Below are positions 28,890 to 31,078 of a DNA stretch of 36,581 nucleotides, one piece after another. A program made the translations under genes and the position numbers. The notes beneath the pieces are model-generated. The model was not told the DNA's origin. It ran no database searches and saw only the letters and a program-made list of their open reading frames with translations. Positions within the stretch are counted from its first letter, which is position 1, and each line of letters begins with the position of its first letter. The stretch is from positions 1 to 36,581 of the forward strand of contig WLKK01000004.1 of NCBI GenBank assembly GCA_009701305.1, in the 5' to 3' direction. The DNA comes from Actinomycetota bacterium. Its GTDB lineage: Bacteria > Actinomycetota > Actinomycetes > Nanopelagicales > Nanopelagicaceae.

Positions 28890-29323
28890 TCCTTAGCTCC
28901 TTTATCTTTGATGATTACTTCATTTACTTCTGGTTGATTTAACATTAAGAAATCAGGGTTGCCACTCGGCACCATTCCCAAGAGTCGTGCCTTTTTTGCT
29001 AAGGATTCTGGTGATGAGATGCGCGCTAAATTTTGAGAATTTGCTTCTTCAAGATCAGCTAAATGAATTGCTTCAAACTTAAGTCGGTGCAACTTGATGG
29101 CATCTTGATTAAGAGCCAAATTAAGGCCCATGACACAAACTAATGCGAAAATCATGGCGCCGAAAATTATTGAATTAAACGCTACCTTTGTTACAGATTT
29201 CCCTTCACTTGGTCGCAGTTCGGCAACAAGTCGCAGTACAGGGTCTGGCAATCTCTGGAGACGTGGAAGTGGATTAGGTGAGAGCTTTCGCGCTGGTGAA
29301 CTCTTGAGAGCAGTTATTGCCAT
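28886..29323 (-). CDS. ftsL: FtsL-like small bitopic division protein
   Basis: 145 aa with a single TM (FNSIIFGAMIFALVCVMGLNLALN) between rsmH and ftsI. The call rests on position and topology. Confidence 0.75.
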   Translation of the reverse strand: MAITALKSSPARKLSPNPLPRLQRLPDPVLRLVAELRPSEGKSVTKVAFNSIIFGAMIFALVCVMGLNLALNQDAIKLHRLKFEAIHLADLEEANSQNLARISSPESLAKKARLLGMVPSGNPDFLMLNQPEVNEVIIKDKGAKE

Positions 29324-30264
29324 TAGGCAGCCACTCCCCCCACTTTTTCAATTGCGCGTAAACGCACTGAAGTGGCACGCGGATTTTCGGAAATTTCAAC
29401 ATCTGATGCACTTTCGCTTTGCCTTGTTAGTAAGCGATAGTCAGCTGGCGTTGGTTCAATCGGCAACCCATGTGGAACAGATGATGTTGAAACCGCAGTG
29501 AAGGCACGTTTCACAATTCGGTCTTCTAGCGAGTGGTAAGAGAGCACAACCATTCGACCATTTTGATTTAAGATATTTAATGCTGCTGGGATTGCTCTTT
29601 CAAGTATCGAAATCTCATCATTAATAAATATCCGCAATGCTTGGAATGTGCGTTTGGCAGGATGTCCACCAGTTCTGCGAGTTGCAGCAGGGATACTCTC
29701 GCGAATTACTTCAGCCAAGCGACTGGAATTTGTAAATAATTCAACTTCACGTTCTTTAATGATGCGATCTGCAATTCGAGATGCAAATCGTTCTTCGCCA
29801 TACTCACGGAAGATTCGTGCTAACTCTTTGCCACCAAATGTATTTATAACTTCAGCAGCTGTAATTCCATCTGTAGAATCCATCCGCATATCAAGCGGTG
29901 CATTCTGTGCGTAAGAAAATCCTCGCTCTGGCTCATCAAGTTGCATTGATGAGACTCCTAAATCAAAAAGAATTCCATCAACTCCGCTGTATCCAGCAGC
30001 AGCGATAACTTGTGGCATCTGATCATAAATTGCGTGGATTAATGTAATGCGCCCATCAAATTTCGCTAATCGAGTTTTAGCATGATCGATTGCGGTTAGA
30101 TCGCGATCAATTCCAATTAGATGAATATTTGGAAAGTGAGTTAGTAATTCAAATGAATGGCCGCCGGCGCCAAGAGTCGCATCAACAACTAATGCATTAT
30201 TTTTCGTTAGTGCAGGGGAAAGTAGCGCAAGTGATCGCTCAAGTAATACTGGCTGATGTAACAC
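29323..30264 (-). CDS. rsmH: 16S rRNA (cytosine1402-N4)-methyltransferase RsmH (MraW)
   Basis: MLHQPVLLERSL, VDATLGAGGHSFELL, GILFDLGVSSMQLDEPERGFSY, VLSYHSLEDRIVKRAF. GTG start with GGGGGAG upstream. Confidence 0.98.
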   Translation of the reverse strand: MLHQPVLLERSLALLSPALTKNNALVVDATLGAGGHSFELLTHFPNIHLIGIDRDLTAIDHAKTRLAKFDGRITLIHAIYDQMPQVIAAAGYSGVDGILFDLGVSSMQLDEPERGFSYAQNAPLDMRMDSTDGITAAEVINTFGGKELARIFREYGEERFASRIADRIIKEREVELFTNSSRLAEVIRESIPAATRRTGGHPAKRTFQALRIFINDEISILERAIPAALNILNQNGRMVVLSYHSLEDRIVKRAFTAVSTSSVPHGLPIEPTPADYRLLTRQSESASDVEISENPRATSVRLRAIEKVGGVAA

Positions 30265-30309
30265 TGCACTCCCCCTTTCTTTCTGGCCTTCTAAAACTCC
30301 CTTGATTCG

Positions 30310-30415
30310 CTAGCTCGAAACTTCGGACACCGCCGCCGGACGGATTGATCGGCGCCGGGGAAGGGGCGTCGATGCGCTATAGCTAGCCGCGGCAGTGACC
30401 GAAATTTCGAGTTAG
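30310..30415 (-). ncRNA. Structured RNA in mraZ-rsmH intergenic region (mraW RNA motif-like)
   Basis: RNA CUAACUCGAAAUUUCGG-U-CACUGCCGC (30415-30389) pairs with GCGGCGGUG-U-CCGAAGUUUCGAGCUAG (30336-30310). The 17-nt part has one A-C mismatch and one G-U; the 9-nt part has no mismatch and one U-G; a U-U separates them. Inner hairpin AUCGACGCC-CCUUCCCC-GGCGCCGAU (30373-30348). GC-rich island in an AT-rich genome. Confidence 0.85.
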
Positions 30416-30843
30416 AAAAATCCTGGGAATACCTCCTCAGATACATCTGCAAAGCCCTTTTCGCGATCTGCGAGGTAGGACTCCCAAGCGGTTGCATCCC
30501 AAATCTCAACGCGAGTGTTTGCGCCAATAACGACGCACTCTTTGTTGAGGTCGGCGTAGGTACGAAGAGACGGGGGAATCGTCACTCGACCTTGCTTATC
30601 TGGAATCTCGTCATGTGCTCCGGCAAACATCACACGCATGTAATCGCGGGCAGATTTAGCGGTAACTGGGGCCTGGCCCATTGCTTCGGTAAGTGCTGCA
30701 AACTCTTTTGCGGGCCATACATAAAGGCACCGTTCTTGACCTTTGGTAATTACTAAACCGGCAGCTAATTCATCTCTGAAGCGGGCCGGAAGGATTACTC
30801 GTCCTTTTTCATCGAGGCGGGGTTGGTAGGTGCCTAGAAACAC
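30412..30843 (-). CDS. mraZ: Transcriptional regulator MraZ
   Basis: 143 aa; [26 protein letters not shown] and [19 protein letters not shown] (two AbrB-like DEKGR/DKQGR modules). GTG start. Confidence 0.97.
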
Positions 30844-30929
30844 TGAACTCTCCCCTTCCCCACTTTTAAAAAGGTTTAGAACTTTTAATCCACATCAACA
30901 GCGATTGAGCACAACTTGTAGCGTTAATC

Positions 30930-30961
30930 CCCCACTTTACTCCACTTATCTCCACTGTCAA
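30930..30961 (-). promoter_or_regulatory. mraZ/dcw promoter with embedded MraZ-type operator (three 10-bp-phased repeats)
   Basis: Minus strand TTGACA-N16-TAAAGT (30961-30934) overlapped by AGTGGAGATA / AGTGGAGTAA / AGTGGGGGAT, with repeat cores at 30956-30950, 30946-30940 and 30936-30930. Confidence 0.75.
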
Positions 30962-31078
30962 CCACCTTCCCCCATTGAACTCCCCTTTTCCCCCCACCCA
31001 TCCAGCAGGCCACCAACAAGCCCCTGCACCAGAGGGGTTGAGTTAGTGCCCGAACCGCCTTGCCTCTACCGTTAGGAC

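Follow-up and report, generated by a model that had tools for sequence, protein, structure and literature searches.

The locus between the cell-division genes mraZ and rsmH in this actinobacterial contig raises the question of what the C-rich loop of a conserved hairpin pairs with, and whether the loop may act as a shared anti-Shine–Dalgarno (anti-SD) element for the two genes that flank it. The window, meaning the whole stretch of 36,581 nucleotides that was analysed, belongs to a 1.48-Mb assembly in 110 contigs from the Nanopelagicaceae, the freshwater acI lineage. Freshwater acI bacteria are very abundant, and in them the loop might place a level of translational control over the dcw cluster.

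The mraW RNA hairpin

The features of the locus are as follows, all on the minus strand.

30412..30843, minus: mraZ coding sequence (PF02381, two domains; GTG start at 30843)
30850..30861, minus: mraZ Shine-Dalgarno (SD) tract GGGGAAGGGGAG
30314..30411, minus: mraW RNA hairpin, from a permissive Rfam scan, folding and family covariation
30357..30364, minus: terminal loop CCUUCCCC, 8 nt, with the core CUUCCCC at 30363-30357
30269..30278, minus: rsmH SD tract AAAGGGGGAG
29323..30264, minus: rsmH (mraW) coding sequence (GTG start at 30264), assigned from its position within the dcw cluster and from alignment to relatives

The RNA lies between mraZ and rsmH/mraW on the same strand, in a gap of 147 nt, and the remaining dcw cluster follows downstream of rsmH. 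In a permissive Rfam scan of the window, the mraW RNA covariance model (RF01746) matches 30303-30418 with 34.0 bits and an E value of 4e-5, which bears out the motif assignment made in the initial annotation, and the match covers model positions 1-107, the full model length. The Rfam scan at gathering thresholds gives no match in the window, the cut-off for RF01746 being 50 bits, a curation threshold and not a biological feature. Among 297 genomes of the class, 191 have an mraW RNA match, with 84 over the cut-off and 107 of the 191 under it. Because sub-cut-off scores are common in the class, the RNA in the window with its 34 bits is labelled a divergent orthologue of mraW RNA. It shares with that family the place between mraZ and rsmH, the long hairpin and the CUUCCCC loop; it differs in its score, 34 bits against the 50-bit cut-off, and in that both flanking SDs match the loop, as they do in Nanopelagicaceae but not generally.

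The hairpin folds with a predicted energy of -52.6 kcal/mol (z -4.85). Its outer stem begins directly past the mraZ stop codon, and the loop core CUUCCCC is modelled as wholly unpaired. Double changes occur at 21 of 28 consensus pairs among 28 family sequences, and the long hairpin is thus supported by covariation. A further candidate recognition site is AUCCGUC (30339-30345, minus), which lies in the internal loop on the 3' side of the inner hairpin and is kept in 34/45 family loci.

The mraW RNA is widespread in Actinobacteria, including mycobacteria and corynebacteria. It is only listed as a motif by Weinberg et al. 2010 (PMC2864571), the family is given no function in PMC5640933, and no function for it was found in the literature searched. 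In C. glutamicum, the 5' end of the mraW mRNA maps within the motif (PMC3890552), and the mraW transcription start site of C. diphtheriae is downstream of the motif (PMC5784534). A shared anti-SD loop would, if true, be the first testable function of this orphan RNA.

Loop complements before mraZ and rsmH in Nanopelagicaceae

The 10-mer CCCCUUCCCC, composed of the 8-nt loop and two stem Cs, is the perfect complement of the mraZ SD tract. The loop segment CCCCTTCCCC is located at 30366-30357 (minus), its first two Cs (30366-30365) being stem nucleotides in the fold, and the leader segment GGGGAAGGGG at 30861-30852 (minus) is followed by AG, 6 nt before the GTG at 30843. The loop core CUUCCCC can also pair over 7 nt with the rsmH SD GGGGGAG (30275-30269, minus), with one G-U pair. 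Both complementarities had been noted in the initial annotation; they are confirmed, and all of its coordinates are correct on the minus strand. In the 1.48-Mb genome, GGGGAAGGGG has two occurrences, namely the loop (antisense) and the mraZ leader, and both copies are present at the locus in opposite orientation, ~500 bp apart, in 14/61 family genomes.

The complement of the loop core with G-U pairs allowed, GGGGRRG, is found before mraZ in 36/45 family loci and before rsmH in 38/45. A second collection, which was MraZ-selected and partly overlaps the first, gives 29/35 for mraZ and 30/35 for rsmH. Before other genes the pattern occurs in about 1% overall: in the window's genome, 5 of 214 sampled genes, mraZ and rsmH included, have it within the 25 nt that precede them, and it is seen in two sister genomes in 0/83 and 0/94 sampled leaders (0/177), this background being a 254-kb sample with pattern searches and SDs taken from automatic start calls. 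The best control on the enrichment is provided by orthologues from the same operon: in 21 family genomes, GGGGRRG is present before mraZ in 18/21 and before rsmH in 19/21, and in 7/288 leaders of 14 other dcw genes. In these genomes ftsZ has GGAGG as its SD and never GGGGRRG. Family leaders that contain a GGGG run continue it with RRG in 36/45 cases for mraZ and in 38/43 for rsmH. When the loop core is compared with all 21 permutations of its C5U2 composition, CUUCCCC ranks first for both the mraZ leader and the gap from the hairpin to rsmH, with or without G-U pairs. This evidence comes from two gene families in one lineage and represents few independent events.

A chance match is ruled out by the two-site occurrence in the genome, the leader background, the operon control and the permuted heptamers. 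A dcw-wide regulon of GGGGRRG SDs is ruled out as well, the pattern being essentially restricted to mraZ and rsmH. In the window's genus only (the window and locus L310), the ftsL leader within the tail of rsmH (29321-29340, minus) also reads GGGGGAG.

The three positions by which the 10-mer extends beyond the heptamer core are loop position -1 and the two stem Cs, and the exact 10-nt pairing requires two stem base pairs to open. In raw counts, the loop -1 C and the leader GGGGAAGG occur together in 15 loci, the loop feature only in 7, the leader feature only in 1 and neither in 22. On the MraZ and RsmH tree there are four leader changes and seven loop changes, giving just three informative independent pairs on well-supported branches. 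In L021, from the window's own genus, the mraZ match is broken (GGAGAAGGGG) with the loop unchanged and no compensation. The extension has no tree support, and the exactness of the 10-mer appears to be partly coincidental. Covariation between loop and SDs in aligned relatives, which had been put forward as a check, is thus unconvincing for the extension, and the CUUCCCC core never varies within the family, so no classical loop/SD covariation can be read from it.

The invariant loop outside the family

All MraZ-selected loci, which were chosen independently of the RNA, carry the CUUCCCC loop (79/79), among them the 44 outside Nanopelagicaceae. The exact complement of the loop is very rare outside the family, at 1/122 for the mraZ leaders, 1/122 for the post-hairpin gaps and 0/44 for either among the MraZ-selected loci; the loop there ranks 19 and 17 among the 21 permutations (122 loci), and 13 and 13 (44 loci). 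Many rsmH starts outside the family are homology-assigned and possibly wrong, and the whole post-hairpin gap was therefore tested too. Before mraZ, the G-U-tolerant complement ranks 4-5 of 21 (122 loci) and second (44 loci), which is in line with the G-rich nature of ordinary GGAGG-type SDs. No alternative loop complement is prominent outside the family in the upstream region, the mraZ coding sequence, the hairpin arms or the rsmH start.

Since the loop is invariant where SDs vary unmatched, the function for which mraW RNA is conserved cannot be SD pairing, and a class-wide anti-SD function is ruled out. The anti-SD switch of the initial annotation accordingly stands only in part: within Nanopelagicaceae the complement persists at the two flanking SDs at frequencies well over background, whereas outside the family an invariant loop faces varying, unmatched SDs, the pattern that the annotation itself had named as a refutation. 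A segment complementary to the SDs in the same transcript, above background, is found in Nanopelagicaceae only. We infer that the class-wide conservation of the loop serves some partner distinct from the SDs nearby, and the SD match looks like a lineage-specific addition, added or made possible in Nanopelagicaceae. The sequence evidence covers the hairpin, the invariance of the loop, the enrichment of its complement at both SDs and the restriction of this enrichment to the family. The analysis in this way separates a lineage-specific SD match, which is directly testable, from a class-wide invariant loop with a putative non-SD partner, and turns attention to a factor that would bind the loop in experimentally tractable species.

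Near both SDs outside Nanopelagicaceae, most of the permuted heptamers are more frequent than the exact complement GGGGAAG, which holds ranks 19 and 17 of 21, and past the hairpin the G-U version ranks 21 of 21 (named loci). The scarcity of GGGGAAG could be avoidance of pairing or, alternatively, an effect of composition.

A candidate translational layer and its alternatives

Transcriptional control of the locus by MraZ is predicted from two further features.

30932..30965, minus: four GTGGN6 repeats at 10-bp spacing, predicted MraZ boxes (GTGG at 30965, 30955, 30945 and 30935)
30961-30956 and 30939-30934, minus: predicted mraZ promoter TTGACA-N16-TAAAGT, overlapped by the box array

A MraZ-box-like array is located upstream of mraZ in nearly all loci of the class. 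According to the citing text of PMC8475190, MraZ autorepresses the dcw cluster (Eraso et al. 2014), and MraZ boxes are known from E. coli and Mollicutes. Autorepression resembles the proposed loop control in acting on the same genes, with the box array overlapping the mraZ promoter, but it operates at the DNA level, and the last box is 72 nt from the SD tract.

In the reading preferred here, the hairpin just past the mraZ stop codon displays an invariant CUUCCCC loop that is probably kept across the class for a non-SD partner, and in Nanopelagicaceae mraZ and rsmH, alone among dcw genes, have in addition acquired SDs complementary to the loop. Most likely, the loop could then form a pseudoknot in cis that sequesters the rsmH SD; sequestration of the mraZ SD, by long-range pairing or in trans, is less certain. 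In this way translation of both genes would be lowered beneath the transcriptional control by MraZ. The class-wide binder of the loop could relieve or set this pairing. Taken as a whole, a class-wide loop partner combined with a Nanopelagicaceae loop that sequesters the rsmH SD, and perhaps that of mraZ, is given a little less than an even chance. The narrower proposal, in which one loop serves as shared anti-SD for both genes, a switch grafted onto an mraW RNA bound by a trans-acting factor, is possible but somewhat doubtful.

Predicted energies bear on both SDs. The duplexes of the loop at 37 C are -12.5 kcal/mol with the mraZ SD and -11.5 kcal/mol with the rsmH SD. The 16S tail forms a stronger duplex with the rsmH SD tract AAAGGGGGAG (-15.4 kcal/mol), and about 9-10 kcal/mol would be needed to open the predicted local structure of either SD in the plain fold. 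Given this rsmH SD/16S duplex and the cost of opening, loop-SD pairing is possible and not dominant. The loop lies 82 nt from the rsmH SD downstream and about 490 nt from the mraZ SD upstream, and the rsmH SD in cis appears the more plausible target. Since mraZ would initiate before the hairpin is made, any control of mraZ would presumably be feedback on completed transcripts or act in trans. In the plain fold, the rsmH SD can pair with a TTTCCCC stretch in the rsmH coding sequence. This stretch is present in only 5/45 family loci, of which three belong to the window's genus.

about 30220-30215, minus: TTCCCC in the rsmH coding sequence, starting 44 nt past the first base of the start codon

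A substantial share of the probability, well short of even, goes to the alternative that across the class the loop acts solely through a partner in trans, a protein or an RNA, the G-rich SDs being a flavour of strong SD that matches the loop incidentally. Such a partner would account for the invariance of the loop in all families irrespective of their SDs, the conserved AUCCGUC outside the loop suggests recognition of the whole RNA, and the 16S pairing of the rsmH tract is what a strong SD would provide. However, ftsZ in these genomes has a strong SD of another form, RRG regularly follows GGGG before mraZ and rsmH, and permuted heptamers fit the two SDs less well. It is improbable that the main role of the hairpin lies in processing or stability, for example as an RNase cut site or internal 5' end, and serves to separate mraZ from rsmH mRNA. 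The transcript ends mapped in the two corynebacteria and the position of the outer stem directly after the mraZ stop codon fit this role, but it leaves the invariant 7-nt loop and the family-specific SD match unexplained, and the window shows no promoter-like site in the interval from mraZ to rsmH.

Very improbable is the explanation in which the G tract before mraZ acts at the DNA level, as an additional MraZ box (GTGGGG), and matches the loop as a side effect. The tract in the window, AAGTGGGGAAGGGG, does resemble a MraZ box, but it lies out of 10-bp phase with the array in addition to its distance from the last box, it reads CCUGGGG or CUUGGGG, not GTGG, in genera g3, g4, g10 and g16, and a box at mraZ would not explain the rsmH match. 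A MraZ box is for these reasons an unlikely origin of the mraZ G tract.

Within the same phylum, the 6C/B11 sRNA (RF01066) is a further point of comparison, its C-rich loop binding G tracts beside ribosome binding sites and blocking translation (PMC12395582). It has in common with the loop in the window this complementarity to a G tract of the ribosome binding site; it differs as a separate trans-acting sRNA, whereas the loop in the window is part of the mRNA. The 6C covariance model finds no match in 41 family genomes at E <= 0.001 (0/41), which makes 6C sRNA an unlikely reason for the G-rich SDs.

Short hairpins with GGGG loops seem, on inspection by eye, to be present in the mraZ 5'UTRs of the family loci L012, L022, L163, L172, L174 and L180, and are not universal; in L077, from another family, the loop of a hairpin in the mraZ leader reads UGGGGAA, again by eye. 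The GGGG loops of such leader hairpins could form kissing contacts with the C-rich loop.
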